From: Candidatus Zhuqueibacterota bacterium
GTDB taxonomy: Bacteria; Zhuqueibacterota; Zhuqueibacteria; Oceanimicrobiales; Oceanimicrobiaceae
Assembly: GCA_029262055.1 (NCBI GenBank)
Contig: JAJDAD010000063.1
Coordinates: 1-64,000 of the forward strand
Length of the DNA: 64,000 bases
Direction: 5' to 3'
A program made the translations under genes and the position numbers. The stretch's first letter is position 1; each line of letters starts with the position of its first letter. The notes beneath the pieces were generated by a model that searched no databases, was not told the origin of the DNA, and saw only the letters and a list, made by a program, of their open reading frames with translations. Positions 15,613-41,769 of this stretch are shown in pieces.

Positions 15613-15741
15613 CCGCGGGCGGTACAGCGCCCAGGGGCTCATTTCGACAACACTCTTAAACGATTTCATTTATCCCGGATGTTTTTTCAAAAACTACCTG
15701 GTGTGGGTTTCCCTCAATTCGATCGCTGGAGGCATTCTATA

Positions 15742-20111: not shown

Positions 20112-23100
20112 GTGAAGAGTCTATCAAGATATTTTTGCGGCATTGCCGCCGTTTTTTTACTGCTGGCCGGCACTACTTCGGGCCAGGCTCAAAATGCCCA
20201 GCCACCTGTGCACCCTCATGTCTTTTTCGACAGCCTGGGGGTCGAGGAGCTGCGTACAAAAGTGCTTGGAAATGCCCGTTTGAGCAAGGTTTGGCAGCGC
20301 TTCAAAGTCGAGCGTGTCGATTCTTCATTTTTATTGGAGGTCGGCCCGGGCGAATTACTGGACCTGGATCTCGGGCGCGCTTACGGTGATGCGCTTGCCG
20401 ATTTGACACTTGCCTACATCGTTTTGCAGGATTCGGTCTACCTGACCAAAGTCATCAACATGATGAGCGAACTGTCGGCCAAGTCAGCCTGGGGCAATGC
20501 CTTGATCAAAGGTCACATCAGCATAGGCTTTGCGTTCGCCTGGGACGGTCTGTTCAATCATATACCGGACAGTCTCAAAGCCACGTTTAGGGATGCGATC
20601 TTGCGGCACGGCAATAACAACGTCCCGAACGACGTCTACGGAAATATTAACTGGACTGCCTCGGCTGGAGAGGGCCTGCTCGGGCTTGCTTTCAGGGGCG
20701 ACGGCGATGCCGACTTCAACGGATTTGTCGAAAAACTCCTCATAGACGCAAAGCTCAATTATAAAGAAAAGGACCGCAGCGTTCTTTGGGCACACGGCAG
20801 CGACGGTTTTCCGCACCAGGGTTTGGGCTACTGGCGAAAGTACATTCACGCAGGTTTATTCCTGAGTGCACTGCGACGGCAGGAGCCGCAGAATGATTGG
20901 TTTCATTTGGGCAAAGAGTTCCCGGGCAGCGAGTTCCTGCAGAAAACCGGGTACGCCAGAATATATGCCGATATGCCGCATGAGGACCTGGAGACTCTGA
21001 CCTGGGCAGACAGCAGACAGGTCAGGGCGAAACCCGGACTTGGGCCGTACGGCAACATTGGCCTGGTCAGTATTCTGGCATCTGAGTACAAAGACGGGTA
21101 TCTTCTGGATTTTTTCGATTATCTTGTCGACGAAAGACAAGCGCGGTTTGCGGACGAAGACTGGGCTACTTTTCTCCTGTTCGACGACACCGGGATCGTG
21201 CCGCAGTCGTACCGCGACCTGCCGCTGAGCCGTTACTGGCCTGATATGGAGGCAGCTATCTTCCGCAGCGGTTGGGACCAGGACGATATGGTGTTTTACA
21301 TGCGCTCGGGTTCTCCGGGCGGCCATTCACGATTTCTGAAATCACTCTCTCCGGGGGGGCACGATCATCCGGATGCCAACGGTTTCGTTATTTTTTATGA
21401 TAACGACTATTTAGCAGCAGAGGACGGGGTTTTTCCACACATCGGCCCGGATACCGGCAATAACAAAATTACGTACGGCCATAACACATTTCTGATTGAT
21501 GGCCTCGGTCAGAAGGGCGACAGGACAACGAAGCCTCTCTCCACGACGGCACACATGGACTATCTCGACAGCGAGCACGTCGGTTACCTGATGGGAGACG
21601 CGACCGATGCTTATGAAAGTATCGACAAGTTCCACCGCTATGTCATCTATAAGAAGCACAAATACTTTGTCATGGTCGATGAGCTGAGCGACCCGGCTGG
21701 TCCGCACAAGTATGAATACCTGCTGGGCACGGATAACCGCCATTTTTTGGTACAGAGTTCCCCGGACCAGTTCACCGTCACGCCCCGTAGCGGGAGCGCC
21801 AAGCTGCCCGTCACAGTGGTGGAGCCGCGCGCATTCACAGGAGAGATCCTGCCGGACCGACCGTACTCTATCGATGTCTCTCTCACCGACATGTTGCATC
21901 TGTCCCCGGTTGAAGATGCGCAGGAGGCGACGTTTTTCACGGTGCATTATCCGCAAAAATTATTCGACGCGCCGCCACTGATCACAAAGATCTATGAAGA
22001 TGACCTCGGCATAAGTGGCGTAGTCGTCGATGACGATGAGTTTCATCTGCACAACAAGAACGCCGCACTGTACACTTATGCCGGCCTGACCACTGATGCC
22101 CGGCTTTGTTATTTCAAGGATAATTTGTTTGAGTTTGAGTATCTGACAACGGGCAGCCGCGAGTTTCTCTACCGTGGCCAAATCGGCATTCGATCGAGCG
22201 CTCCCGTCGTGGCTTCCTTTAAGGAGACAGACGGTTCGCTGCGTGTCGATGCGGCCGGCGCCGCCACTGAGATCACTCTTTTCTATCCGGGCATCCTGGA
22301 TGTTGAGGTCGACGGCCAGATTGTTTCGCCAACCGTTCGCGCGGAAAACTCTATCACTTTTACTCTCTCGCCCAAAACGTTTGAGATTGGGCCGTCGCGC
22401 TTCGAGCAGGTGGTAACCGATAACTACTCTGTACGGATTCTGGCGCCGCCAGCATTGCAACTGATCTCACCAAACGGCGGGGAATTGCTGAGCGCCGACA
22501 GTTCACAGGTGATTATGTGGTCTTCTAATGGACTTTTTGCCAGGGCAAACCTGCAATACTCGGTGGATGGCGGCGTGTCCTGGAAGACGATCGCAGACTC
22601 GGTCGACAATTCCGGCACCTACAACTGGCTGGTCCCGGATGAACGTTCCGACAACGCCCTGGTGCGGGTCACTAATGCTGACGGTCCGTTGCCGGTGGAT
22701 GTCAGCGATGGCCAATTCAGCATTGACAGGGCACCGGAGATCAGCGGGATTCAGCCTGCTCTGGGGCCGGTCGGCTCGCAGGTTGCCATCCGCGGCGTTG
22801 GCTTTGCGCGGGTGACAAGGGTCGCGTTTGGGCTGATCCCGGCCACGACTTACATTGTTGTGAGCGACAGTTTGATGAATGCCACGGTACCAGAGGGGGC
22901 CGCTACCAGTCCGGTTCTGGTCACCAATCGCATTGCGACCGGCGCCAGCCCGGGGCTGTTTGAGGTGATTACTTCACCGGTGATCCTCTCTTTCACGCCT
23001 GACAGTGGCCCGGTCGGTACCGAGGTAACAGTAGCGGGGAAAAACTTCATTTCGGTGGGCAACGTCACTTTTAATTCTACCCCGGCGGACAGTTTTCTGC

Positions 23101-25277
23101 TGCTGGCGGATTCATTGCTAACAGTGATCGTGCCGACTGGCGCGCACAGCGGAAGAGTCAAAGTAAGCAGCGCCATCGGTGTCGGGGAAAGTACCTCAGA
23201 TTTTACGGTTAAATTGCCGCCCGTCATCTACTCAGTCGATCCGGCTCAGGGTCCGGTGGGCGCCAGAATTGCAATCAATGGTGAGAGTCTGTCGGAAGTC
23301 TTTAGCGTCACCTTCGGCAGTGTCGCTGCCACAGACATCGAGGTGCTTTCGGATTCTCTCATCAGTGTAGCGGTGCCTGCGGGTGCGGAATCAGGCGGTA
23401 TCCGCGTCGAGAATCCGTTTGGAGCTGCGACGAGTGAAGTACAGTTTCTGGTGACTGTGGCGCCCATAATCGAGACTCTGCTCCCGATGAGCGGTCCGGT
23501 CGGAACCCAGGTGATCATCAGAGGAAGGCACTTTCTGGGCTCGACTACGGTAGCCTTTGGAGATGCAGAGGCAGATTACTTCTCTGTTCAAAGCGATTCG
23601 GTTATCGTGGCAACTGTCCCGCCCGGCGCGGAGACAGGGCGGGTGGCGGTTGTAGGTTCGGGCGAGATCAGCACCAGCCCAATCGCGTTCGTGGTCTACC
23701 TGCCGATTCGTACCACAATCTTCCAGCCGACTCAGGACACCTACTCTCATTTGGTGAATACAACTGAGAACTTCGGTACCCGCACGAAACTGAAAGTGGA
23801 AAGCGGCGGTTTTGTTACCTATTTGAAATTCAATGTCAACAGCATCAGTGGCAGCATTCAGTCAACGCACCTGCGGCTCTTTGCCGAGAGCACCAGCACC
23901 GATGCGGGCTCGATCTACAATGCGTCTAACAGCCTGCTGTTTTCGTCGACGCCATGGACGGAGATAAATCTAACAGCCCAAAACGCACCCGCAGTGTTGG
24001 GTACGGCTCTTGATTCTATTGGTAGTGTCGTTTCTCAGACCAGGGCGCTGCTGGATGTTTCTGCTGAAGTGTTGGCCGAAGGCGAATATAGTTTTGCCAT
24101 CGTGAGCGAATCAAGCGATCTGGCTGAGTTCAGTTCTAGAGAAGGGGCTGCACCACCGGAATTAATCGTTACGGCCATACTGGAGCCGAATCTACTTCCC
24201 ACTATCCAGGGCTTCACTCCGCAATCCGCTGAGCCGGGAGAAGAGGTGGTCATCAGTGGGACCAGGCTCAACGAAGTGACGCGCGTGCGCTTCAACCAGC
24301 GTGCGGCCCGGGATTTTGAGATCGAGTCGTTTACGCGACTGCGGGTACGGGTCCCGGATGATGCCAGATCGGGACCCATTTCAGTTGCGAATTATGCCGG
24401 AACGGTTCGGAGTGCTACGCCGTTCGATTTCATTCGTGTCAACCTGGATACCACGTTTGTTTATTATGCAACAGCGGATGCGTTTGTGCGTTCGGCGGAA
24501 CCGACCCGTAATTTTGGTAATTCGCCAGAGCTGCGCGTCAGCAGTTCCAAGTTTTCACGCGCCGTCAGTTATTTGCTTTTTGAAATCGAAGGTGCACTGG
24601 GAGATATCAAATCAGCAAGAGTCAAGCTCAGAGTAAATGACACAGGCCCTGATGGGGGAACGATCTACCCGGTTTCAAACAATTATAATGACCGGCCATC
24701 CCGTTGGCGCGAGGACAAACTGGTCTGGAAGAATGCTCCGGTCCTGCCTCCTTTTGGGCTGAGTTCGGTCAATGCAATCCAAACCGGCTTCGTTGAATTT
24801 GATGTCACGGAGTCCATCCACGGTGATGGTGTTTATAGCTTTGCGATCAAGAGCGGCTCGCCTGATAAAGTGTTGTTCGGTTCACGGGAGTCACTTCATC
24901 CGCCTGTTCTACTGATAGAAACAACACTGGATCCGGAATCGATAAGTCTCTTAACCGGCGTCGACACGCAGCAAGATGCCACCCCGGAGGTTCTCCCTGA
25001 CAAGCTGGCAATCACTGCAAACTACCCGAACCCGTTTAACCTCGAAACAACGATTCAGTACAGCTTGCCGGTCCAGGGGGACGTGAGTTTGATTGTTTAC
25101 AATCTGGTCGGGCAGGAGGTCAAAGTGTTGGTGGATAAGAACCTGGCGGGAGGCAAGTTCTCGGCGAGATGGGACGGCCGGGATGCTTCAGGCCGGGAAG
25201 TGGCGTCCGGGATTTATTTTGTGCGGCTGCGCGCTGCCGGCAGGAGTGCGCTCAGGAAGATTGCCCTGCAGAAGTAG
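20112..25277 (+). CDS. Secreted heparinase II/III-like polysaccharide lyase with TIG and DNRLRE modules and NPFN tail
   Basis: 1721 residues starting at GTG 11 bp after the previous stop; the frame opens straight into a signal peptide (1-27, ending TSGQAQ). Residues about 35-410 form a helical toroid (NINWTASAGEGLLGLA, HGSDGFPHQGLGYW), followed by the beta-sheet heparinase II/III domain to about 780 with its hallmark GGHDHPDANGF. Then a Kre9-like Ig (780-873), four TIG domains (875-1197), DNRLRE (1199-1358), a fifth TIG (1361-1440), DNRLRE (1445-1605) and the NPFN tail (1625-1721). Families with this catalytic pair (PL15, PL17, PL21, PL39) eliminate uronic-acid polymers such as alginate or heparin. 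The two DNRLRE modules and the neighbouring alginate-lyase-like gene favour an alginate-like substrate, but this is inference. Confidence 0.82.
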   Translation: MKSLSRYFCGIAAVFLLLAGTTSGQAQNAQPPVHPHVFFDSLGVEELRTKVLGNARLSKVWQRFKVERVDSSFLLEVGPGELLDLDLGRAYGDALADLTLAYIVLQDSVYLTKVINMMSELSAKSAWGNALIKGHISIGFAFAWDGLFNHIPDSLKATFRDAILRHGNNNVPNDVYGNINWTASAGEGLLGLAFRGDGDADFNGFVEKLLIDAKLNYKEKDRSVLWAHGSDGFPHQGLGYWRKYIHAGLFLSALRRQEPQNDWFHLGKEFPGSEFLQKTGYARIYADMPHEDLETLTWADSRQVRAKPGLGPYGNIGLVSILASEYKDGYLLDFFDYLVDERQARFADEDWATFLLFDDTGIVPQSYRDLPLSRYWPDMEAAIFRSGWDQDDMVFYMRSGSPGGHSRFLKSLSPGGHDHPDANGFVIFYDNDYLAAEDGVFPHIGPDTGNNKITYGHNTFLIDGLGQKGDRTTKPLSTTAHMDYLDSEHVGYLMGDATDAYESIDKFHRYVIYKKHKYFVMVDELSDPAGPHKYEYLLGTDNRHFLVQSSPDQFTVTPRSGSAKLPVTVVEPRAFTGEILPDRPYSIDVSLTDMLHLSPVEDAQEATFFTVHYPQKLFDAPPLITKIYEDDLGISGVVVDDDEFHLHNKNAALYTYAGLTTDARLCYFKDNLFEFEYLTTGSREFLYRGQIGIRSSAPVVASFKETDGSLRVDAAGAATEITLFYPGILDVEVDGQIVSPTVRAENSITFTLSPKTFEIGPSRFEQVVTDNYSVRILAPPALQLISPNGGELLSADSSQVIMWSSNGLFARANLQYSVDGGVSWKTIADSVDNSGTYNWLVPDERSDNALVRVTNADGPLPVDVSDGQFSIDRAPEISGIQPALGPVGSQVAIRGVGFARVTRVAFGLIPATTYIVVSDSLMNATVPEGAATSPVLVTNRIATGASPGLFEVITSPVILSFTPDSGPVGTEVTVAGKNFISVGNVTFNSTPADSFLLLADSLLTVIVPTGAHSGRVKVSSAIGVGESTSDFTVKLPPVIYSVDPAQGPVGARIAINGESLSEVFSVTFGSVAATDIEVLSDSLISVAVPAGAESGGIRVENPFGAATSEVQFLVTVAPIIETLLPMSGPVGTQVIIRGRHFLGSTTVAFGDAEADYFSVQSDSVIVATVPPGAETGRVAVVGSGEISTSPIAFVVYLPIRTTIFQPTQDTYSHLVNTTENFGTRTKLKVESGGFVTYLKFNVNSISGSIQSTHLRLFAESTSTDAGSIYNASNSLLFSSTPWTEINLTAQNAPAVLGTALDSIGSVVSQTRALLDVSAEVLAEGEYSFAIVSESSDLAEFSSREGAAPPELIVTAILEPNLLPTIQGFTPQSAEPGEEVVISGTRLNEVTRVRFNQRAARDFEIESFTRLRVRVPDDARSGPISVANYAGTVRSATPFDFIRVNLDTTFVYYATADAFVRSAEPTRNFGNSPELRVSSSKFSRAVSYLLFEIEGALGDIKSARVKLRVNDTGPDGGTIYPVSNNYNDRPSRWREDKLVWKNAPVLPPFGLSSVNAIQTGFVEFDVTESIHGDGVYSFAIKSGSPDKVLFGSRESLHPPVLLIETTLDPESISLLTGVDTQQDATPEVLPDKLAITANYPNPFNLETTIQYSLPVQGDVSLIVYNLVGQEVKVLVDKNLAGGKFSARWDGRDASGREVASGIYFVRLRAAGRSALRKIALQK

Positions 25278-25628: not shown

Positions 25629-28600
25629 ATGAAAACGAACATCACATCTGCTTGGATACTAGTTTGTTTGCTCGGGATCTTTCACACGCTGGCTGCGCAG
25701 GGCGGAGGCACTGCGTTGCAGTTCGATGGCCAGGGCGGCTATGTTGAGATCTCAAATCATCCCGATTTTCAAGGCGGTTCTGGCAACAGTTTCACCATTG
25801 AGGCATGGGCTAAGGTGACGGACTTGAGTGAAGACAGGCCCATCATCCAGAAGTGGCTGGACAAACGCAACAAAGAATGGGGCATGACCATAAACAGCGG
25901 CTCTGTCAACAACATAGCTGTCGCGATCGAAAACAACGGCAATGATTTTGAGTATGAGGCCGGTGGCGGTATCGTCCAGGATAATGCCTGGCACCACATC
26001 GCTATGACTTACGATGGCAATGCGCACACACTGAAAATCATCATTGACGGGCAGGAGGTCGGGAGTTCTCCGGTTCCGGATGGTATGCCCTCGACCAACG
26101 CGACTGTCCAGATCGGTCATCATCGCTACAAACCGGAAAAGAAGTTCCTCGGGGAGATCGATCAAATCAGGATCTGGAATCTGGTCAGAACACCATCCGC
26201 GATTCAGGCGGACATGTTTGACACGTTGAACGGTGACGAAGCCGGGCTTATCGCTTATTATCAATTTGATGAAGGCAGTGGTTCGACCACGGCCGACCAA
26301 GCCGGCAACGGCCACACGGGTCAGTTTAATCAAGGTCCGAGCAACGACCCGTTTTGGGTCGCATCAACTGCGCCTATTGCGGGGGATGCATTCATAACCG
26401 TGACTTCGCCGAACGGCGGTGAGGTCTTTGAGCAGGGAGATGCGCACACCATCACATGGATTTCTGGTGGTGCCGGTGGACACGTCATGGTGGAGTTGTC
26501 AGAGGACGGTGGCACTACGTGGAGTCTCGTTGACAATTCGACAAACAACGACGGCCGGTTCAACTGGACAGTCCCCGCCATCGTTACTGCGAGTGGGTTG
26601 ATTCGGATTACAGATACTAGCGACACCACGGTGCGGGACGCGAGCAATGCAACTTTTGCCATTGTTGCCGGCGGTGGTGACTTTAATTTTAGTTTTTCCG
26701 ATATTACCACGAGTGCCGGGACCGGCGGTCCGGAAGGGGCGGGGAACACCGGTGGGCATGCCGCTGTATTCGCGGATGTGGACGGCGATGATCGCTCAGA
26801 CTTGTATCACACCATGCTCTTTTCTAGCCAGATCGCAGATCTGTTCTTCAGGAATACCGGTGGGAGCGTTTTTGCCGACGAAGGCGCTGCACGAGGCATT
26901 GATGACCTTGACGGAGGATCGCACGGGGCTGTTTTTGCGGATCTTGACAATGATGGTGACTTCGATCTGTTTAATGGTACGACCGGGCTCGATGGTTCCC
27001 CGGAGATAAACAATGTTTTCAGGAACAACAGCAGCGGCATTTTTACAGACGTAAGTAACTCCGCGGGTATCACACGGCGGGAACCAACCCGGGGTGTTGT
27101 CGCCTTTGACATGGATTCTGATGGCGACCTGGACCTGTTTGCTGTCAGCAATTTTCAGGGATCGGCGGATCCGTCCGGGGAACGCAATGAGGTCTATCGT
27201 AACGACGGCAACCTGCAGTTTACGGAAATCACCACCGGAGGACTGTATACCGCGCCGGCGGGACAGGGCGCGACCGACACCGATTACGACGGGGATGGCG
27301 ACATCGATATCATTGCCGGCAACAGAACCGGGAGTCTAAATGTTCTGAGAAACGACGGCAGCGGCAATTTTACGCTGCTGGGCGCTTCCTCAATCGGCAT
27401 CACACACCAGGGGCGGGAAGGCGTCACGATGGGTGATGTGGATAACGATGGCGACCTGGATATGCTTTTGTCCGACTTCAATGACCCGCAGAACGTTGCG
27501 CTGGAGCACTTGTATCTGAATGACGGCGATGGCACCTTCACGTTCAAGTCAAGCTTTACCGACACGAAGGGATTTATGGGCGGTTTCGCGGATTTGGACA
27601 ACGATGGCGACCTCGATATTGTTTTTTCAGGAGACGACGTTTCTTATGTAAATGACGGATCCGGGAATTTCACCGTAGGGCCATCCGTTCCGGTGAGCGG
27701 AATCGATGATCCGCGAGCCATCGCTTTTAGCGACATCGATGACGACGGCGATCTTGATTTTGCTATTGGGGCAAAACGTTCGCGCAACTGGCTGGTTCGC
27801 AACAATCTTACTTCAGGCAATTGGTTAAAGGTGGGGCTGGTTTCTCCCTCCGGTCAGAAAGGCGCGTTCGGGGCAAAAATCAAGATCTATGCGGCCGGCC
27901 AGCTGGGCGGCCAATTACTTGCTTTTCGTGAAGCGAGAGCCATGAACGGCTACCTTGGCCAGAATGCCCAGAATATCCACTTCGGCCTGGATTCCCGCAG
28001 CCAGGTAGATGTTCAGGTTATTTTTCTGGATGGCACTGTCTCTTCCCAGACTTTCGTATCAGCCAACCAGACGATCATTTTTGACGAGTCTCCGGGCGGT
28101 GGCGCCGGCCCGCAAATCAGCTCATTCACTCCGACCAGCGGTGCGCCCGGTATTACTGTTTCCATCTCCGGGACCGGTTTTACCGGTACGAGCGAGGTGC
28201 TGTTCAATGGCACAGCGGCAACTGGCTTTTCGGTGCTGTCCGACGTGGCCCTGGACGCTACGGTACCGGCGGCAGCAACCACCGGCACTATCACAGTCAC
28301 CACGCCAGCCGGGTCGGCCACCAGCACACAAGTTTTTACGGTCACGGCCGGCAATACTGTAACCTTCGTCACCAGCGATGACGGGCAGGTCAAACTCACG
28401 GAACCATCGAAGAATTATGGTTCAAAGTCGACGACCAAGGTCGAAGAGGACAAGTTTAATACCTATCTGAAGTTCAACGTTAGTGGCCTGAGTGGGGCAG
28501 TTGAAAGCGCCAGGGTCCGGCTGCGCGTCTCCGCCGGAACCAGTGACGGCGGTCCCGACGGCGGTTCCTTGTTCCTGGTATCAAATGACTTTTTGGGATC

Positions 28601-31600
28601 GAGCACACCGTGGGTGGAGAACTCACTCTCGGCCGGTAACGCACCACAAATATCAGGAAATTCTCTTAGCTCCGCAGGCGCTGTGACGCCACTCGCTACC
28701 GTCGACTTTGACGTGAGCGCCGCAGTTTCCGGCAACGGCACCTACAGTTTTGGCCTCAAGAACGGCTCGGGAAACCAGGTCAAATACTACACCAAGGAGG
28801 GCAGCTTTGCCCCGGAACTCATCGTTCAGGTCGGTTCCGGCGGTGGTGGCAACACGGCCCCCACTGCGGTCGATGACAACGCCACAACCACGGAACCCAA
28901 TCCCGTTCAGATCGACGTTGTTGCAAATGATTTTGATTCCGATGGTTCAGTAGACGCAAACTCCGTGGCAATTGTCTCGAACCCCACGAACGGGTCGGTC
29001 TCGGTGGCCGGTGGCGGCCTGGTAACCTACACCCCAACTTCAGGGTTTAGCGGCCAGGATACTTTCACCTACACTGTGGATGATAATGAAGGTGCTGCAT
29101 CCAACAGTGCGACCGTTACCGTAACCGTTGACGCCTCCGGTGGTGGCGGTACAGGGACTTTCACATTCATCGCGACTGATGATGGACAGGTGAAATTAAC
29201 CGAACCCGGAAAGAACTACGGTACCAAAGCGACCATGAAGGTCGAGCAGGATAAATTCGCCAGTTACATGAAGTTCAATGTTACCGGTTTGAGTGGCCAG
29301 GTTGTAAGCGCGAAGGTGCGTCTGTTGGTGTCGGATGGGAGCTTCGACGGCAGTACTGAGGGTGGGTCTATCTATCCGGTTGCCAATAGCTTTCTTGGCG
29401 GCGGCGTTCCGTGGGTGCAATCATCCCTGAATGCTGGGAACGCCCCGGCCATTTCCGGGAGCCCGCTGAGTACGGTTGGGACGGTCCTGAGTAATTCTTT
29501 CGTTGATTTTGACGTGACGGCTGCCTTTGGATCGAACGGAGAGTATAGTTTTGCAATTTCCAACACGTCAACCAACCAGGCCAAATACTACAGCCGGGAA
29601 GGGGCTTCGGAGCCGGAGCTGATCATCGAGGTTTCGGGAGGTACGGGCAATCAACCCCCGACAGCCGTTGACGACAACGTCGCCACAAGTGAAAATATTC
29701 CTGTCGTCATCACTGTGACGCAGAACGATTCCGACCCGGACGGCACGCTGGTTCCTGCAACAGTGGCGATAACCACGGGACCAGGCAACGGCTCCACAGC
29801 AGTCAATCCGGCCAATGGTGTGGTGACATACACGCCCGCTTCGGGTTTTTCCGGCAGCGATTCATTCCGGTATACGGTTGAGGACAACGAAGGCGCAGTC
29901 TCAAACGAGGCGCTTGTGAGCGTTCAGGTCAATGGTACCAACGCGCTCCCGGTTGCAGTTGACGACACCGTTACTGTGAGTGAAGATGTACCGAGCGCCA
30001 TCAGTGTACTCTTAAATGATGACGACTCAGACGGCAGCATTGATCCCACGACAGTAAGTGTCACCAGCGGGCCCGGGCAGGGCACGGCTACTGTGAATCC
30101 GTCCACAGGGGAAGTCACCTATGCACCGGCGCTCAACTTTTTCGGGAATGACACCTTCAGCTACACAGTCAAGGACAACGATGGCGCGGTCTCGAACCAG
30201 GCAACAGTCACGATAAGCGTCACACCGGTCAATGATGCGCCAGTGGCCGCCAACGACTCCGAGACCATTACCGGCTCATCAGTCGTGCTCAATGTCACTG
30301 CTAATGACACGGATATTGACGGCACGATTGACGTTACAACCGTGACGGTGGTTTCATTTCCCTCGTCCGGATCCGTGGTTGTCAATCCCTTCTCGGGGAT
30401 AGTAACCTACACTGCCGGCGGCGGTTTTTCCGAGTCAGACAGTTTTACCTACGAAGTACGCGATGACGGAGGCCAGACCTCCAATGTGGCTACTGTCACT
30501 ATTTTTGAGCCGGGTAGCCAGAAAACCCTGTTTTCATTCGGTGCGGCTGAAGATTCCTACGTAAAAACTACCGAGCCGGGCTCCAATTTCGGTGGCCGCA
30601 ACACCATGAAAGTAGAGTCACCGAAATTCTCTTCCTATGTCAAATTCAATGTCACCGGCCTGAACGGCAATGTGCAAAGCGCGCATATCAAACTGTTCGT
30701 TTCGAGTCCCAGTGTCGATGGTGGAACGATCTATCTGGCCAGTAACACGCAGCAGGGCTCCGGTACACCGTGGACGGAAGAGACGCTTACATTTGCAAAC
30801 GCGCCGGAGATCATTGGTTCGGCTCTGTTTAACCCGGGTGCGGTGCAGGAACTTGATACGGCCAGCTTTGAAGTTACATCGGCCATCGGCGGAAATGGTG
30901 TTTACAGCTTTTGTATCCAGAGCACTTCCCTGGACCAGGCGAAATACGCAGCCAAGGAGAGTAGCAATCCCGACCCCGTGCTGGAAATCATCACCGACGG
31001 TGTGCCTCCTGCCGCGCCGACCGTGTCTGCACTCAACCCCGATAGCGGGCTGCCGGGCAGCGAGATCGTAATCTCGGGGAGCGACTTTATTGCGACCTCT
31101 GGCGGTAATCCTTTTTCCGGCACGATTCAAATCATGCCGCTCGGTAACTCCATCACAAAAGGTGTCGCCGGCGCCACCGACAACGCGGGTTATCGCAACG
31201 ACCTGGCGGAATTGCTCGATCTTGACGGCGTCGCGTATAATTTTGTTGGCACAAATGACAACGGCACCGGTTTTGACAACGACCATGAGGGACACGGTGG
31301 CATCCGTGCCGACCAAATTCTGGTCGATTTGAATAGTTATCTCACGACAAATCCTCCCGATATTGTGCTGGTACATATCGGTACCAACGATATCTCCACG
31401 GGAAACACTCCCGCCAGCACGGCCGACGAGACCGGACAAATCATCGATACGATCGAGCAGTTCGATGCCGAGACAGTAATCATTGTGGCCAGTCTTGTAC
31501 CACGCAAAGACCAAAACAATGATGAAACCACGGACCTGAACAACAGAGTCGAGGACCTGGTTGCTGCTCGTCAGTTAAACGGTGAACCGGTTTACTACGC

Positions 31601-33095
31601 ACCGATTAATGAGGCCTTCATAGCAAACCCGAATTGGCAAGCCGATTATTTTCCCGCCGCCGACCAGGTGCATCCGAACGACACGGGCTACGGCGTCATG
31701 GCGGGGGTCTGGTTTGATTTGATCAAAAATATCATTTCCGGTTCTACCGGAATCACGGTCGCCTTCAACGGTAGCGATGCCACCAGCCTTACAGTCGATT
31801 CGGCCAACCAGATCAGAGCAACCGTGCCGGGCACCGCATCGACGGGACCGGTCACTGTCACAACGCAATACGGCAGCGGCCAAGGCCCGAGTGCTTTCAC
31901 GGTGCTGGATCCGACAATCGCCGCGCTCGAGCTTGAGTATCCGCAGGATGCTGTCGTTTGGCAGGCTGGTAGTACGCACATGTTACAATGGCGCACTCTG
32001 GGCAAGGTTGAGGACGTCCGGATTCAATATTCTTTAGATGATGGTGAGACCTGGCTGTCTGCGGCGGAGCGGGTTCCCAACAACGGAAAATTCGTCTGGC
32101 GTTTGCCTTCAGGAGAAACAGAGCGCATCAAGCTTCGAGTCTCTGATGCCCAGAATCGACACATAGAGAGCATTACCGAGAACGGTGTCAGTGTGCGGCA
32201 ACGCGGCAACACTACTTCGCTGCCCAATTGGGTCGAAATGCGACAGGCGCTTGCCAGCGATCCTGAGCTGGATAACGCCAGCCTGCAGCGTGCCGATCTG
32301 AATGGCGACGAAGCTGTGGACCTGCTCGACTTTTTGAGTTTGCTTGATCTTGACGAATCCAGGTTGGCAGCCATGCGTGACAACAGACACGAGGCCGGCC
32401 CGGCCGAAGAGCAGGGGAATCTCAGTCTGATTCTGCCGGCTATTGAACCTCCGGCGGGCAAGCAGGTCGAAATTCCGATCCTGGCAGAAGGGAATGAGAA
32501 GATTCGTGGCTTCCAGTTCCGATTGAATTATGACAGCGAAGCACTGACCAATATCGAGTCTGTTTCAGCCACCAATGAATTGGGGATGGTGCTCGAGACC
32601 TTCGTTGCAGACGGCTATGTCGATGTCATCGGTTACCTGGAAATGGAAGGAAGCGCGGTGCAAACAAATGGCGAGCTGGTGCGACTCAAAGCTGAACTTT
32701 CGTCTTCAGATGTGAATTTTGAAACCAAGGTCACGAATGTGCTTTTTGTCTCCCAGAACCTTGGACGCCTGACAGATACTGTCGTTGACAATTCTACCGG
32801 CAGCGGTAGTCTACCTTCCGAATTCCGCCTGGCACAAAATTATCCTAATCCGTTTAATCCGACCACACAAATCAATTTTGACCTGCCGCAAAAGTCGAAA
32901 GTCACCATTCAGATCTACAGTATTCGCGGTGAACTGGTCGCCACTCTGCTTGACAAAGAAATCGCACCAGGCCGCCACAAAATAACCTGGGACGGCAGGA
33001 ACAGCAGAGGAGTGCGAGCCGCCTCGGGAATTTACATCTATCGCATTAAGGCCGGTAAGTGGAAAAACTCCAAGCGCATGACCCTGCTAAAGTGA
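25629..33095 (+). CDS. Giant secreted protein: LamG, FG-GAP/UnbV, DNRLRE, tandem-95, SGNH hydrolase, dockerin- and cohesin-like, NPFN tail
   Basis: 2488 residues; signal peptide 1-24 (ending LAAQ). Order: LamG lectin fold (28-235), Kre9-like Ig (252-345), FG-GAP propeller ending in an ASPIC/UnbV domain (353-822; GAFGAKIKIYA, REARAMNGYLGQN), TIG (828-908), DNRLRE (910-1068), tandem-95 (1074-1172), DNRLRE (1176-1337), three tandem-95 repeats (1341-1632), DNRLRE (1632-1793), a TIG domain split by an SGNH hydrolase (1793-2095), Kre9-like Ig (2096-2190), one dockerin-like F-hand (about 2223), a cohesin-like domain (2263-2390) and the NPFN tail (2394-2488). SGNH blocks are visible: GNSITKG, GTNDIS and DQVHPND. 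SGNH enzymes often de-esterify polysaccharides, so this could remove acyl groups before lyase attack; the exact ester is unknown. Confidence 0.82.
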   Translation: MKTNITSAWILVCLLGIFHTLAAQGGGTALQFDGQGGYVEISNHPDFQGGSGNSFTIEAWAKVTDLSEDRPIIQKWLDKRNKEWGMTINSGSVNNIAVAIENNGNDFEYEAGGGIVQDNAWHHIAMTYDGNAHTLKIIIDGQEVGSSPVPDGMPSTNATVQIGHHRYKPEKKFLGEIDQIRIWNLVRTPSAIQADMFDTLNGDEAGLIAYYQFDEGSGSTTADQAGNGHTGQFNQGPSNDPFWVASTAPIAGDAFITVTSPNGGEVFEQGDAHTITWISGGAGGHVMVELSEDGGTTWSLVDNSTNNDGRFNWTVPAIVTASGLIRITDTSDTTVRDASNATFAIVAGGGDFNFSFSDITTSAGTGGPEGAGNTGGHAAVFADVDGDDRSDLYHTMLFSSQIADLFFRNTGGSVFADEGAARGIDDLDGGSHGAVFADLDNDGDFDLFNGTTGLDGSPEINNVFRNNSSGIFTDVSNSAGITRREPTRGVVAFDMDSDGDLDLFAVSNFQGSADPSGERNEVYRNDGNLQFTEITTGGLYTAPAGQGATDTDYDGDGDIDIIAGNRTGSLNVLRNDGSGNFTLLGASSIGITHQGREGVTMGDVDNDGDLDMLLSDFNDPQNVALEHLYLNDGDGTFTFKSSFTDTKGFMGGFADLDNDGDLDIVFSGDDVSYVNDGSGNFTVGPSVPVSGIDDPRAIAFSDIDDDGDLDFAIGAKRSRNWLVRNNLTSGNWLKVGLVSPSGQKGAFGAKIKIYAAGQLGGQLLAFREARAMNGYLGQNAQNIHFGLDSRSQVDVQVIFLDGTVSSQTFVSANQTIIFDESPGGGAGPQISSFTPTSGAPGITVSISGTGFTGTSEVLFNGTAATGFSVLSDVALDATVPAAATTGTITVTTPAGSATSTQVFTVTAGNTVTFVTSDDGQVKLTEPSKNYGSKSTTKVEEDKFNTYLKFNVSGLSGAVESARVRLRVSAGTSDGGPDGGSLFLVSNDFLGSSTPWVENSLSAGNAPQISGNSLSSAGAVTPLATVDFDVSAAVSGNGTYSFGLKNGSGNQVKYYTKEGSFAPELIVQVGSGGGGNTAPTAVDDNATTTEPNPVQIDVVANDFDSDGSVDANSVAIVSNPTNGSVSVAGGGLVTYTPTSGFSGQDTFTYTVDDNEGAASNSATVTVTVDASGGGGTGTFTFIATDDGQVKLTEPGKNYGTKATMKVEQDKFASYMKFNVTGLSGQVVSAKVRLLVSDGSFDGSTEGGSIYPVANSFLGGGVPWVQSSLNAGNAPAISGSPLSTVGTVLSNSFVDFDVTAAFGSNGEYSFAISNTSTNQAKYYSREGASEPELIIEVSGGTGNQPPTAVDDNVATSENIPVVITVTQNDSDPDGTLVPATVAITTGPGNGSTAVNPANGVVTYTPASGFSGSDSFRYTVEDNEGAVSNEALVSVQVNGTNALPVAVDDTVTVSEDVPSAISVLLNDDDSDGSIDPTTVSVTSGPGQGTATVNPSTGEVTYAPALNFFGNDTFSYTVKDNDGAVSNQATVTISVTPVNDAPVAANDSETITGSSVVLNVTANDTDIDGTIDVTTVTVVSFPSSGSVVVNPFSGIVTYTAGGGFSESDSFTYEVRDDGGQTSNVATVTIFEPGSQKTLFSFGAAEDSYVKTTEPGSNFGGRNTMKVESPKFSSYVKFNVTGLNGNVQSAHIKLFVSSPSVDGGTIYLASNTQQGSGTPWTEETLTFANAPEIIGSALFNPGAVQELDTASFEVTSAIGGNGVYSFCIQSTSLDQAKYAAKESSNPDPVLEIITDGVPPAAPTVSALNPDSGLPGSEIVISGSDFIATSGGNPFSGTIQIMPLGNSITKGVAGATDNAGYRNDLAELLDLDGVAYNFVGTNDNGTGFDNDHEGHGGIRADQILVDLNSYLTTNPPDIVLVHIGTNDISTGNTPASTADETGQIIDTIEQFDAETVIIVASLVPRKDQNNDETTDLNNRVEDLVAARQLNGEPVYYAPINEAFIANPNWQADYFPAADQVHPNDTGYGVMAGVWFDLIKNIISGSTGITVAFNGSDATSLTVDSANQIRATVPGTASTGPVTVTTQYGSGQGPSAFTVLDPTIAALELEYPQDAVVWQAGSTHMLQWRTLGKVEDVRIQYSLDDGETWLSAAERVPNNGKFVWRLPSGETERIKLRVSDAQNRHIESITENGVSVRQRGNTTSLPNWVEMRQALASDPELDNASLQRADLNGDEAVDLLDFLSLLDLDESRLAAMRDNRHEAGPAEEQGNLSLILPAIEPPAGKQVEIPILAEGNEKIRGFQFRLNYDSEALTNIESVSATNELGMVLETFVADGYVDVIGYLEMEGSAVQTNGELVRLKAELSSSDVNFETKVTNVLFVSQNLGRLTDTVVDNSTGSGSLPSEFRLAQNYPNPFNPTTQINFDLPQKSKVTIQIYSIRGELVATLLDKEIAPGRHKITWDGRNSRGVRAASGIYIYRIKAGKWKNSKRMTLLK

Positions 33096-33443: not shown

Positions 33444-34961
33444 ATGCGGAACTTCACGGTCATTCTGGTTGCTTTCCTGATACTCGTTTCGTTTTCGTCT
33501 CTGTTTGCAAATAATCCCGAAGAGGTAACTGGAGAAGGCGGATTAGGCAGTGCGCTTCCGCTGTGGAGTGTGATTCCCTTTGTTGGCATCTTGCTGTCGA
33601 TTGCCCTTCTTCCCCTGCTGGCCGAATCGTTCTGGCACCACAATTTTGGTAAAATAGCGCTTTTCTGGGCGCTCCTGTTTGTCGTGCCCTTTCTTTTCGT
33701 ATACGGTAGTGACGCGATCCACGAGATCTTGCACACTTACTTTCTGGAATACTTCCCCTTCATTATATTACTATGGGCCTTGTACACCATCTCCGGCGGC
33801 ATCCTGCTGGTGGGGGCGCCTGTTGGCTTACCCATTAACAATCTGGTGCTGTTGCTGATAGGGACGGTACTTGCCTCCTGGATCGGGACCACGGGAGCAG
33901 CGATGGTTCTTATCCGGCCCCTGATCCGGATGAACAGTTACCGCAAGTCGAAGATCCACCTTATACTGTTTTTTATATTCCTGGTTGCGAACATTGGCGG
34001 TTCCTTGACGCCCCTTGGTGACCCGCCGCTTTTTCTGGGCTTCCTGCAAGGGGTAGATTTCTTTTGGACTTTCCAGATTTTTCCACAAATGGCGGTGGTC
34101 GCGGGCCTACTGCTAGTGATGTTCTTCATCTGGGATAATTACATGTTCCGGAAAGAAGGCTGGCATGAGAAGATGCACCTGAAGGCGGTTCATTTCCAGT
34201 TGCACAAGGAAGGTCCGGAAGAGATGGTGGTGGAAGAAGACATCGTGATAGAAGATCCTGAAACGCACAAGAAACATGAAGAGTCGTACAAGATGCACGT
34301 GAAGGGCTTTTTCAATTTCATGTTTCTCGGTGGTGTTGTGGTCGGCGTCCTGTTCAGCGGAAAGGTCCACCTGGGCGAAGTAACGGTCCTGGGTATCCAC
34401 ATGGAGATTCAGAACATCGTCCGGGATGTTTGGTTGATCATAATGGGATTGCTGTCATTGAAGCTTACCCCGATTGCATACCGCAAGGCCAACGATTTCA
34501 ATTGGTTCCCGATTGTCGAAGTAGCAAAGTTGTTTGCTGCGATTTTCATCACAATCATTCCCGCACTGGCCATGCTCCGCGCCGGACAAGATGGCGCCTT
34601 GCGTTTTGTCATTGACTTTGTCGAAAACCCGAGCGATTATTTCTGGATGACCGGTGTGCTCTCCAGTTTCCTGGATAACGCGCCGACCTATCTTGTGTTC
34701 TTTAACACGGCACTAGGAAAGTTTGGTGAAACTGTCACCTGGCTGATGGCCGAAGACGGAGGTGGCTTATTTCTGCAGGCGATCAGTTGCGGTGCAGTCT
34801 TTTTCGGTGCTAACACCTATATTGGCAATGCACCGAATTTCATGGTTAAATCTATTTCGGAGCAATCCGACATCAAGATGCCCAGCTTCTTTGGGTACAT
34901 GGGATACTCCGTGATTATTCTGGTTCCGTTGTTTGTGCTGACTACCTGGATTTTCTTTTAA
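33444..34961 (+). CDS. Na+/H+ antiporter-like ion transporter (CitMHS_2/NhaD-like)
   Basis: 505 residues with many hydrophobic helices. It resembles the putative sodium:proton antiporter / citrate-transport family of the ion transporter superfamily; markers are SWIGTTGAAMVLIRP, GGSLTPLGDPPLF and SSFLDNAPTYLVF, the discontinuous-helix motifs of this superfamily. The N-terminus looks like a signal or first helix. A highly charged cytoplasmic loop (about 252-285) divides the protein in two halves. GAGGAAG precedes the ATG. The stop TAA shares its last A with the ATG of nuoJ (TAATG), so translation of nuoJ is probably coupled to it. It likely exchanges Na+ and H+ across the inner membrane. The transported ion is inferred from the family and the complex I neighbours; a carboxylate substrate is not excluded. 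Confidence 0.75.
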   Translation: MRNFTVILVAFLILVSFSSLFANNPEEVTGEGGLGSALPLWSVIPFVGILLSIALLPLLAESFWHHNFGKIALFWALLFVVPFLFVYGSDAIHEILHTYFLEYFPFIILLWALYTISGGILLVGAPVGLPINNLVLLLIGTVLASWIGTTGAAMVLIRPLIRMNSYRKSKIHLILFFIFLVANIGGSLTPLGDPPLFLGFLQGVDFFWTFQIFPQMAVVAGLLLVMFFIWDNYMFRKEGWHEKMHLKAVHFQLHKEGPEEMVVEEDIVIEDPETHKKHEESYKMHVKGFFNFMFLGGVVVGVLFSGKVHLGEVTVLGIHMEIQNIVRDVWLIIMGLLSLKLTPIAYRKANDFNWFPIVEVAKLFAAIFITIIPALAMLRAGQDGALRFVIDFVENPSDYFWMTGVLSSFLDNAPTYLVFFNTALGKFGETVTWLMAEDGGGLFLQAISCGAVFFGANTYIGNAPNFMVKSISEQSDIKMPSFFGYMGYSVIILVPLFVLTTWIFF

Positions 34962-35476
34962 TGATTCTCGTTTTATTTTTTGTATTTGCCTGCGTGGCAA
35001 CTGCATCGGCAATCATGATGGTTGTGCACAGGAATCCCATCTACAGCGCGTTGTTCCTGATAGTCTCTCTGTTCGCACTTGCAGGTCTGTACGTGCTGCA
35101 GAATGCACCATTCATCGCTGCTATCCACGTTATCGTTTACACCGGGGCGATAATGGTGCTGTTTTTGTTTGTCCTGATGTTGTTAGACCTGAAACAGGAC
35201 GAGACAAGAGAAAAAACATCCCGGCCGGCACAATTGCTCGGCTGGCTTACCGCCGCGGTGTTGGTAGTAGAGTTGGCCATCTTTGCGATGTCGGACAAGT
35301 ACTCAGTCGCAGGTCCATCGCCGGAGTCTGCAGCCATGGGCCTCCAGATTGGCGATACTGCTACCATCGGCAAGCTTCTCTTTACCAAATATTTGTTTCC
35401 TTTTGAAATAGCTTCCATTCTCCTGCTCTCGGCCATCATCGGTTCTGTTCTTCTTGCCAAGTTGAAACTCAGATGA
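34961..35476 (+). CDS. nuoJ: NADH-quinone oxidoreductase subunit J
   Basis: 171 residues with five predicted helices, the usual size. The conserved stretch [20 protein letters not shown], containing the pi-bulge helix of the J subunit, is at about 52-71. It is an inner-membrane subunit of the complex I membrane arm linking the quinone site to the proton pathways. It begins in the stop codon of the antiporter gene (TAATG) and ends in the start of nuoK (ATGA), so it is tightly coupled on both sides. Confidence 0.95.
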
Positions 35477-35775
35477 TTCAACCATCCTACTATCTGGTCC
35501 TCAGTGCGATTCTCTTTACAATAGGAGTTGTCGGTGTGCTCACCCGCCGCAACGCCATCGTTATTTTTATGTCGATCGAACTGATGTTGAATGCCGTTAA
35601 CCTGACCTTGGTTACTTTTTCGAGACAGCTTAATTCTCTGGACGGCCAAATCCTGGTGTTTTTTGCCATGGTGGTTGCAGCAGCGGAAGTGGCCGTTGGC
35701 CTGGCGCTGATTGTGGCTATCTTCAGACAGAAAGAATCGGTGAATGTGAACGAGATTAACCTGATGAAGTGGTGA
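35473..35775 (+). CDS. nuoK: NADH-quinone oxidoreductase subunit K
   Basis: 100 residues and three helices, the standard length. The two glutamates needed for proton transfer are in place: [11 protein letters not shown] and [11 protein letters not shown]. It overlaps nuoJ by 4 bp. It is a small antiporter-like (MrpC-type) subunit of the complex I membrane arm. Confidence 0.96.
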
Positions 35776-35800
35776 TTAAGAATATGATGAGTAGAAAGCA

Positions 35801-37717
35801 ATGATCGATCTCCTCTGGCTAGTGCCTCTGTTTCCTCTGCTCGGTTTCCTGGTCAACGGTATCGGGGGACATCGGATAAGCGAGCGGCAGGCTGGTGTGA
35901 TCGGCAGCGCCGCCATCGCAGCCTCTTTCCTGACGGCGGTCGTGATTTTTTGGCAGTTCCTTGGTCTGCCCGAATCGGAACGTTACATTTCTAATACCGT
36001 TTACACCTGGATAGAGACGGGCGATTTTTCGGTCAACATCGGCTTTTTGGCCGACCCCTTATCGATGGTGATGCTTCTGGTCGTTACGGGTGTGGGAACG
36101 CTCATCCACATCTATTCCATCGGCTACATGCACGGTGATGCCGGAATATCGCGCTACTTTGCCTACCTGAACTTGTTTACTTTTTCGATGCTGCTCCTGA
36201 TTCTGGCCGACAATTTTCTCCTCATGTTTGTCGGTTGGGAGGGCGTCGGCCTGTGTTCCTATCTGCTGATCGGATTCTGGTTTGAAAACGATGATTACGC
36301 TTATGCCGGTAGAAAAGCTTTTGTCGTAAACCGTGTGGGGGACTTCGGTTTCCTGCTCGGCATGTTCTTGATTTTCACCCACTTTGGTTCGCTCAATTTT
36401 GATTCTGTATTTGGCCAGGCCGCGCTGGTGCTTAATCCTGGCCTCGCTACCGCAATCTGTTTGCTGCTGTTTGTCGGTGCCACCGGTAAGTCGGCACAGA
36501 TACCGCTCTATGTCTGGCTTCCGGATGCGATGGCGGGACCGACGCCGGTTTCCGCCCTGATCCACGCGGCCACGATGGTCACGGCAGGGGTCTACATGGT
36601 CGCCCGTTGTCATGCGCTGTTCCTGCAGTCGGCGGTTGCCATGAATGTGGTCACCATCATCGGCATTGCGACGGCCTTCCTTGCAGCGACAATTGCTCTG
36701 GTAAGTAATGATATTAAAAAAGTCCTGGCATACTCCACCATCAGCCAGCTCGGGTATATGTTTGTGGCCTGCGGTGTCGGCGCTTTCGGCGCCGGCATTT
36801 TTCATGTGAACACCCACGCCTATTTTAAGGCGCTGCTGTTTCTGAGTGCCGGCAGTGTGATGCACTCATTGCAGAACGAAACCGACATGAGAAAAATGGG
36901 CGGGTTGCGCAGTAAGCTGCCGACGACCTACAGAGTGTTTCTCACCGGCGCTTTAGCCCTGGCGGGTATTCCTTTCCTGTCGGGCTTCTTCTCCAAGGAT
37001 GAGATCCTGTGGAAGGCATTGAACAGCCCTTATGGCGGTTTCTGGCTCTGGTTGCTAGGCGCGGCGGTCGCAGGACTGACTGCGTTCTATACTTTTAGAT
37101 TGATTTTCATGACCTTCTTTGGCGAGTCCCGGGTTGATGAGGAAGTAGCGGCCCACATCCATGAGTCGCCCAGGGTGATGACCGTGCCGCTGATTGTTCT
37201 TGCGGTCCTGTCGGCGCTTGGTGGTTTGATCGGGATTCCGCATCTCTTCAACCAGTTCGAACATTTTCTCGATCCCGTATTCACGCGTTACACCCACATC
37301 GATTACTTTGAAAATGCCCACCACCTCGTGGGCACCGAGGTTATTTTCATGGCGATTTCGGCGCTTATCGCTGTGTTAGGTGTCGGTTTTGCGTATCTTT
37401 TCTATGTTGCGCGACCGGCTTTGCCGGGACAGATCAGTACCCGTTTCCGGGCGATTTATGCTTTCATGTCGAATAAGTGGTATGTGGATGAACTCTACAA
37501 CACACTGATCGTCAGGCCGCTGCAGGTGCTTGCCGATGTCGTCCTGTGGCGTTGGGTGGACATAAAGATGATCGACGGCTTTGTCAATCAGACGGCGCAG
37601 AGTATCGGTCGTTTCAGTGAGCTGCTGCGCAAATCCGAAACCGGCATCGTACAAAATTATGCGCTGTCCGTGGCTTTGGGAGTCGTGGTTTTGTTCGGAT
37701 ACTTTCTACTGAGCTAG
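35801..37717 (+). CDS. nuoL: NADH-quinone oxidoreductase subunit L
   Basis: 638 residues. It has the proton-pumping core of MrpA/NuoL: the helix-5 glutamate in GWEGVGLCSYLLIGFW, the helix-7 lysine in ATGKSAQIPLYVWLPDAM, and HAATMVTAGVYMVAR. The C-terminal part contains the long amphipathic lateral helix expected of NuoL and ends in a last hydrophobic helix. It starts 25 bp after nuoK. It is the distal pump of the membrane arm. Confidence 0.95.
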   Translation: MIDLLWLVPLFPLLGFLVNGIGGHRISERQAGVIGSAAIAASFLTAVVIFWQFLGLPESERYISNTVYTWIETGDFSVNIGFLADPLSMVMLLVVTGVGTLIHIYSIGYMHGDAGISRYFAYLNLFTFSMLLLILADNFLLMFVGWEGVGLCSYLLIGFWFENDDYAYAGRKAFVVNRVGDFGFLLGMFLIFTHFGSLNFDSVFGQAALVLNPGLATAICLLLFVGATGKSAQIPLYVWLPDAMAGPTPVSALIHAATMVTAGVYMVARCHALFLQSAVAMNVVTIIGIATAFLAATIALVSNDIKKVLAYSTISQLGYMFVACGVGAFGAGIFHVNTHAYFKALLFLSAGSVMHSLQNETDMRKMGGLRSKLPTTYRVFLTGALALAGIPFLSGFFSKDEILWKALNSPYGGFWLWLLGAAVAGLTAFYTFRLIFMTFFGESRVDEEVAAHIHESPRVMTVPLIVLAVLSALGGLIGIPHLFNQFEHFLDPVFTRYTHIDYFENAHHLVGTEVIFMAISALIAVLGVGFAYLFYVARPALPGQISTRFRAIYAFMSNKWYVDELYNTLIVRPLQVLADVVLWRWVDIKMIDGFVNQTAQSIGRFSELLRKSETGIVQNYALSVALGVVVLFGYFLLS

Positions 37718-37728
37718 GACTTTTTTAG

Positions 37729-39270
37729 ATGGAATTGCCTCTCCTGTCAATTGTGCTTTTTCTTCCGCTGGTTGCGGCTGTCTTGCTGGCCTTCATAAAC
37801 CGGGCGAACGAGAGCCTGATCCGGTATTTCGCCTTCTTTTCTAGTTTGGCAGGGTTCATTGTTTCCCTCCCGCTGTTCTTCAGATTTCAAGACAGCGCAC
37901 AAATGCAGTTCGTTGAATACCATTCCTGGATCCCCACTATCGGCGTAGGCTACCACGTGGGGATAGACGGGATCAGCCTGTTCATGGTTCTCCTCACGAC
38001 CTTCCTGACGCCCATCGTCGTGCTGTCATCATGGAATTCGGTGGCGCGCAACATCAAAGGGTACATGATTTCAATGCTGGTGCTGGAGAGCGGTATTCTG
38101 GGCGTATTTGTCTCCCTGGACCTGTTTATGTTCTATGTCTTTTGGGAGGTCATGCTGGTTCCGATGTGTTTTATCATCGGAATCTGGGGTGGGGAGAATC
38201 GCATCTACGCTGCGGTTAAGTTTTTCGTATATACCGTGGTTGGCAGTTTGCTGATGCTGGTCGCCATCCTGGTCGTCTACTTCTACCATGGCGGCGTAAC
38301 CGGCGAATACACGTTTGACCTGCTCAAGTTGCAGCAGATACTATTTCCCCTCGACTATGAAACTTGGCTCTTCCTGGCTTTTGGACTGAGTTTTGCCATC
38401 AAGGTGCCTGTCTTTCCCTTTCACACCTGGTTGCCCGATGCGCACGTTGAAGCGCCTACTGGCGGCAGTGTGATTCTTGCCGGCGTACTTTTAAAGTTGG
38501 GCACATACGGCTTTCTACGTTTTTGCCTGCCGTTTTTTCCGAACGCGGTTGAGCAGTTTACGCCGCTTATGTTGACCCTGGCAGTCATCGGCATTATTTA
38601 CGGGGCGCTGGTTGCCATGGTGCAGCCAGACATAAAAAAACTTGTGGCCTACTCCAGCGTCAGTCACCTGGGCTTTGTCTTGCTCGGAATTTTTGCCTTG
38701 AACAACCAGGGCATCCAGGGCGGGTTGTTGCAGATGGTGAATCACGGACTGTCTACCGGGGCACTCTTCCTAATCGTAGGTATGCTCTATGAACGCAGAC
38801 ACACGCGGCTCATTTCAGAGTTTGGCGGCCTTGCCAGGCAGATACCGATATTTGCCGTATTTTTTATGATAGCAACTTTGTCGTCCATCGGACTGCCCGG
38901 ATTAAACGGGTTCGTGGGTGAATACCTGGTGCTGCTGGCCGCCTTCCTCACCCACAAGACGTTTGCTGTTTTTGCCGCGTCCGGAGTTATTCTTGCCGCC
39001 GTCTACATGCTCCTGATGTTTCAGCGCACCATGTTCGGAAAGCTGAGCAACGATGAAAATCGTTCCCTGCACGATTTGAGCCCACGGGAGATTGCCTTGT
39101 TGGTTCCCATCGTCGTCTTTATCGTTTTAATCGGTGTTTACCCGAATATCTTTCTGAAAAAGATGGAGCCATCGGTCAATCAACTACTGCAACAAGTTGA
39201 AGTAAAACAAGCGATGTATGAACCGGATCAGCGACCGGTACTGGCAAATCACAGGATGCCGCAGCAGTGA
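37729..39270 (+). CDS. nuoM: NADH-quinone oxidoreductase subunit M
   Basis: 513 residues, normal length. Key features are the glutamate in FYVFWEVMLVPMCFIIGIWG and the lysine in AIKVPVFPFHTWLPDAHVEA, plus VNHGLSTGALFL. AGGAC precedes the ATG, 11 bp after the nuoL stop. It is a proton-pumping antiporter-like subunit of complex I. Confidence 0.95.
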   Translation: MELPLLSIVLFLPLVAAVLLAFINRANESLIRYFAFFSSLAGFIVSLPLFFRFQDSAQMQFVEYHSWIPTIGVGYHVGIDGISLFMVLLTTFLTPIVVLSSWNSVARNIKGYMISMLVLESGILGVFVSLDLFMFYVFWEVMLVPMCFIIGIWGGENRIYAAVKFFVYTVVGSLLMLVAILVVYFYHGGVTGEYTFDLLKLQQILFPLDYETWLFLAFGLSFAIKVPVFPFHTWLPDAHVEAPTGGSVILAGVLLKLGTYGFLRFCLPFFPNAVEQFTPLMLTLAVIGIIYGALVAMVQPDIKKLVAYSSVSHLGFVLLGIFALNNQGIQGGLLQMVNHGLSTGALFLIVGMLYERRHTRLISEFGGLARQIPIFAVFFMIATLSSIGLPGLNGFVGEYLVLLAAFLTHKTFAVFAASGVILAAVYMLLMFQRTMFGKLSNDENRSLHDLSPREIALLVPIVVFIVLIGVYPNIFLKKMEPSVNQLLQQVEVKQAMYEPDQRPVLANHRMPQQ

Positions 39271-39298
39271 GTACTTTACTAAAAATCAGGCATACAGC

Positions 39299-40756: not shown

Positions 40757-40835
40757 CATTTCTCTCCAGCTCTGCCTACGCAACTCCCAATCCTGGTGAC
40801 ATCGACACTAAAAGCAGCAACCTCTTAATCTATTT

Positions 40836-41759: not shown

Positions 41760-41769
41760 AGGGTTCGGT

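Follow-up and report, generated by a model that had tools for sequence, protein, structure and literature searches.

A predicted CE3-type esterase nested within a TIG domain of a giant secreted protein from Candidatus Zhuqueibacterota

Can a complete enzyme sit inside a single Ig-like domain of a bacterial surface protein, or do the two merely lie next to each other in the chain? A locus of a Candidatus Zhuqueibacterota bacterium (assembly GCA_029262055.1, contig JAJDAD010000063.1) raises this question. All positions below refer to the window, which is the whole 64,000-nucleotide stretch that was analysed. The open reading frame at 25629-33095 (plus strand, as are all its features given below) encodes a protein of 2,488 aa whose N-terminus, MKTNITSAWILVCLLGIFHTLAAQ, resembles a signal peptide by eye. 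According to Pfam and NCBIfam, this secreted multidomain protein is composed of LamG, FG-GAP, ASPIC/UnbV, TIG, three CBM96, four Big_9/cadherin-like domains, the TIG-CE3-TIG unit discussed here and a T9SS-type C-terminal sorting domain. The latter, a type A sorting/FlgD-like domain (residues 2405-2483, 32841-33077), scored 30.3 bits against TIGR04183 (cut-off 23) and likewise 30.3 bits against PF18962 (cut-off 27). SprA is encoded in the same genome (757.6 bits combined), and export via the T9SS appears likely from these features.

The nested unit lies in frame at 31008-31913 (residues 1794-2095). It opens with strands A and B of a TIG domain (residues 1796-1820, 31014-31088, APTVSALNPDSGLPGSEIVISGSDF), which match positions 1-29 of the Pfam TIG profile. 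A Gly/Ser-rich linker, IATSGGNPFSG (residues 1821-1831, 31089-31121), leads into an SGNH hydrolase of the CE3 type (residues 1832-2035, 31122-31733), and after a second linker, ISGSTG (residues 2036-2041, 31734-31751), the remaining TIG strands follow (residues 2042-2092, ITVAFNG...SAFTV, 31752-31904; profile positions 31-82). Taken alone, the two halves scored 19.2 and 17.4 bits, without overlap on the profile. When they were joined without the insert, a single match of 35.5 bits spanned profile positions 1-81 (PF01833, curated cut-off 20.9), while the protein's intact TIG (28104-28346) scored 31.0 bits. The joined halves from five relatives gave 28.5-45.2 bits, all over the same cut-off. A profile built from the TIGs of the window splits the nested domain alike (2-30 and 28-81); since the joined window copy is among the seven seeds of this profile, the Pfam model is the independent test for that copy. 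In an alignment of intact TIGs from the window and its relatives, the insert is spanned by a single clean gap. The original prediction, that a TIG domain starts, gives way to about 215 residues of SGNH hydrolase and then resumes, is confirmed by the complementary halves and the joined score, with 221 residues between F1820 and I2042. Its claim that both halves make up one domain, by comparison with the intact TIG, is borne out by the profile complementarity and the single-gap alignment. The host sequence is interrupted by a complete second domain, which is an A1-B-A2 domain insertion: judged by sequence profiles, TIG-CE3-TIG is one host TIG split by a complete CE3-type esterase. Unsplit TIGs also occur elsewhere in the window as references, namely four in tandem in a heparinase-like protein (22728-23699) and a fifth at 24192-24434.

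Structure prediction depended on the alignment supplied. A first AlphaFold2 model, made with CE3-only rows, was largely confident in the CE3 part, but most of the TIG N-half had a pLDDT below 50. Its CE3 domain matched 2VPT in Foldseek with an E-value of 9e-14 and a TM-score of 0.88 by target length; the best 50 Foldseek matches were all SGNH proteins and hence uninformative on the TIG part. With rows of intact TIGs added, a second model reached pLDDT values of 95-97 for strands A and B and 89-96 for the C-half, and lower values in the N-terminal linker (about 58 in the block) and in some CE3 loops. As the intact TIG rows themselves supply the fold, this model lends support, rather than proof, to the presumed contact between the TIG halves in one Ig sandwich. 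A further alignment (A3), in which CE3-only and intact-TIG rows were used together, was discarded because it misplaced the TIG N-halves onto MPLGNSIT.

The search for similar TIG insertions in related genomes that had been proposed with the original prediction found the full TIG-CE3-TIG unit in 6 of 82 genomes of the phylum: five of the eight genomes in the window's family (its own included) and one from another family of the same class. The best-named relatives carry the labels candidate division KSB1 or Caldithrix. There was no other full-length TIG-CE3-TIG match in the 388 genomes searched, about 300 of which lie outside the phylum. The conservation in six genomes, together with kin nested in fibronectin-III (FN3) domains (see below), indicates that one domain within another is a genuine design that recurs here, and no accident of sequence. 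One could instead imagine that nothing is nested and that the enzyme lies, as on a string of beads, between a truncated or degenerate TIG and part of some unrelated Ig-like domain. This would be in line with the poor N-half of the first AlphaFold2 model and with the Pfam scan of the uncut 2,488-aa protein, in which the split TIG was absent at E<1. However, two independent remnants should overlap, leave a gap or decay, whereas the TIG pieces are complementary in all six homologues, consist of exactly 25 and 51 residues without any indel and retain 50-54% mean identity, so that we consider such an arrangement very improbable. A fusion of different genes by misassembly or a frameshift might be suspected, given that the relatives were assembled from metagenomes and that the window comes from a draft genome of 114 contigs; the single open frame, free of stops in six independent genomes and with 44-57% identity at both junctions, already refutes it, and we give it practically no weight.

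The segments of the unit differ in how well they are conserved. Among the six homologues, mean pairwise identity is 54% for the TIG N-half, 50% for the C-half and 59% for the enzyme, but 22% and 14% for the N- and C-terminal linkers, which measure 6-14 and 5-6 residues, respectively. An indel-free host with divergent linkers is the pattern to be expected if a guest is loosely tethered to a host that folds. The idea that the enzyme is rigidly fixed on a stalk is thus unsupported, since both linkers are short and variable and the pLDDT drops in the N-terminal linker block. The double attachment restricts the reach of the enzyme without making the joint rigid. That the TIG belongs to a stalk at all is suggested by its neighbours, the CBM96, Big_9, TIG and FG-GAP repeats.

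The guest itself can be assigned to a family. Pfam Lipase_GDSL_2 matched residues 1838-2021 (E 1.3e-17), a phmmer search found 2VPT (4e-20), and by sequence and by fold alike the top three matches were 2VPT, 5B5S and 5B5L, all of them CE3 enzymes. CE3 is defined by the Block I motif GxSxT and further block motifs (PMC9487903). Comparison with these motifs indicates a complete catalytic set in the window copy: Ser1841 (31149-31151) as predicted nucleophile in Block I (GNSIT, residues 1839-1843), GHGG as Block II, Asn1920 (31386-31388) as predicted oxyanion-hole residue in Block III (GTND) and Asp2012-x-x-His2015 (DQVH, 31662-31673) as predicted acid/base of Block V. The CE3 acetyl xylan esterases CtCes3 (2VPT) and that of Talaromyces (5B5S/5B5L) have the same fold and the same residues in Blocks I, II, III and V, but their solved structures are single-domain chains, whereas the present CE3 is nested in a TIG. 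Because of this family membership, deacetylation of acetylated polysaccharide is most likely the activity of the nested enzyme.

TIG is not the only host. Six further genomes carry a related CE3 within an FN3 domain, always at one site between strand C (SQVEYG...) and strands C'/E (...LVTAHSVTFNSL). Two of them belong to the window's family (L040, G005:C26; L125, G001:C335) and four to another family of the class (L128, G017:C4; L135, G030:C19; L136, G036:C651; L137, G039:C130). For five of the six FN3 hosts, the joined halves were run against Pfam. Each gave a near-full-length Pur_ac_phosph_N match over its cut-off; with the fn3 profile, four were over the cut-off and one reached 24.8 against 25. 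Counting both kinds of host, seven of the eight genomes of the window's family contain a nested CE3. A scan for any split TIG or FN3 in 522 ORFs returned solely the CE3-containing cases; each split TIG held a CE3 in its gap, and the halves were complementary every time. As these ORFs stem from the window and from loci centred on CE3, guests other than CE3 would be under-sampled in this set.

The majority of the other CE3 copies in the phylum start soon after a signal-peptide-like N-terminus. In the CE3 phylogeny, the five TIG-nested copies of the window's family form a clade (support 100/99) that sits within a clade (98/90) of the family's secreted N-terminal CE3s, including the C19 copy of the window's own genome. 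The sixth TIG-nested copy (genome G061) was placed elsewhere, weakly, and a single clade for all six is compatible with the data (p-AU 0.47). The FN3-nested copies fall into two supported clades, and a single origin is again allowed (p-AU 0.52). Forcing all 12 nested CE3s into one clade was 31.5 log units worse, with a p-AU of 0.064 that does not formally reject it. Two kinds of host can only be accounted for by a minimum of two insertions, or by a single insertion combined with an exchange of host. The original prediction of an insertion at the level of whole domains is supported by this phylogeny as well as by the profile complementarity and the conservation in six genomes. In a broader version, CE3 would serve this phylum as a portable module for insertion: it would have entered TIG (between strands 2 and 3) and FN3 (between C and C'/E) independently, perhaps on three or four occasions, and would offer a general means of attaching an enzyme laterally to a secreted domain chain that itself stays unbroken; we see about even odds for this generalization. 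On the contigs of two N-terminal CE3 paralogues (G000:C19 and G004:C158), Alginate_lyase-family genes occur at a distance of about 14-22 kb from them.

Is the nested enzyme active, and does the nesting matter? A catalytically dead SGNH fold could serve as a binding or spacer module, and two deviations might be read in this way: Block I has GNS in place of GDS in the window and three relatives, and the G061 copy (L006/L035, G061:C140) has Asn for the Block V Asp (NYLHPN), a change that could reduce the catalytic set to a Ser-His dyad. Yet the CE3 motif GxSxT (PMC9487903) is retained in all six TIG-nested and all six FN3-nested copies. The Ser, Gly, Asn and His blocks are kept in 6/6 TIG-nested copies and the Asp in 5/6, and no other segment of the unit is as well conserved as the enzyme core, making a loss of activity unlikely. 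More weight should be given to the view that the nesting is a neutral accident, kept by descent and of no functional advantage, because a single origin is allowed for the six TIG cases and for the six FN3 cases. The two unrelated hosts, the recurrent insertion site and the presence of a nested CE3 in nearly every genome of the family argue against it; we find neutrality somewhat doubtful, though it deserves serious consideration.

We favour, with a probability of roughly 85%, a family-derived CE3 O-acetylesterase inserted in a TIG loop, hung on the side of the chain by two linkers, which deacylates polysaccharide held by CBM96 and is displayed by a type IX-like route. Its ancestor would have been one of the lineage's own secreted N-terminal CE3 enzymes, which entered the loop joining the second and third TIG strands of a giant secreted surface protein. 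The host TIG would close around the insert, so that the chain runs on through the TIG and the enzyme is suspended laterally on two short, probably flexible linkers. There, Ser1841, assisted by His2015/Asp2012 and by an oxyanion hole to which Asn1920 contributes, would remove acyl groups, most likely acetyl, from a polysaccharide that the three CBM96 modules keep near the enzyme, and a type IX-like route would export and display the whole protein.

Comparable arrangements exist in other systems. The hybrid domain of integrins is Ig-like. In integrin beta, the betaI domain is inserted into this hybrid domain (PMC9856412), and as in TIG-CE3-TIG, an alpha/beta domain bigger than its host occupies a loop of an Ig-like domain; however, the integrin domain binds ligands and is not enzymatic, the protein is from animals and the families are unrelated. 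The pilus tip adhesins RrgA and GBS104 carry the vWA domain D3 between two parts of the Ig-type domains D1/D2 (PMC7893114). They too are bacterial surface proteins with split Ig-like domains flanking a large alpha/beta domain, but that domain is a non-catalytic adhesin module, the proteins belong to sortase pili and the Ig types are different. A survey of A1-B-A2 insertions in ECOD found them in about 20% of multidomain proteins, with the insert commonly smaller than the host (medians 115 vs 199 residues, 77% of events); its main text does not mention SGNH or immunoglobulin (PMC13114784). TIG-CE3-TIG belongs to the same architecture class but runs against this trend, with a 204-residue insert in a 76-residue host (about 2.7 times). 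In the open-access literature searched, we came across no TIG or FN3 domain with an enzyme inside; a large alpha/beta domain in an Ig-like host is thus known already, whereas an esterase in this position, in two host types, did not turn up there. What makes the case significant, beside the size ratio, is that an enzyme is nested in domains commonly taken as passive spacers. With un-nested paralogues in the same genomes and two kinds of host, what domain insertion costs and gains can be tested directly, by setting nested against end-to-end versions with related sequences. The whole-protein Pfam scan missed the split TIG, so annotation of giant secreted proteins probably tends to overlook nests of this kind.

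As to the substrate, the founding module of the CBM96 family binds alginate (PMC9971899). Two neighbouring genes, at 15679-20100 and 20112-25277, encode giant CBM96 proteins with Alginate_lyase-family and Hepar_II_III_C matches, respectively, and may form, next to the gene studied here, a cluster for the degradation of acidic polysaccharide. The CBM96 founder and these lyase-like and heparinase-like neighbours make an acidic polysaccharide a reasonable, though unproven, target. A uronan as substrate is a guess, and a weak one, as no Alginate_lyase-family match was found on the contig of the nested gene in the five relatives examined. Another large protein of the window (17-6703, 2,228 aa) combines an fn3 and a T9SS-type tail with four domains of the Big_1/invasin type. 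The surface-protein cluster is immediately followed, at 33444-43275, by a run of ORFs whose translations resemble, by eye, an antiporter and then NuoJ/L/M/N-like membrane subunits of complex I.
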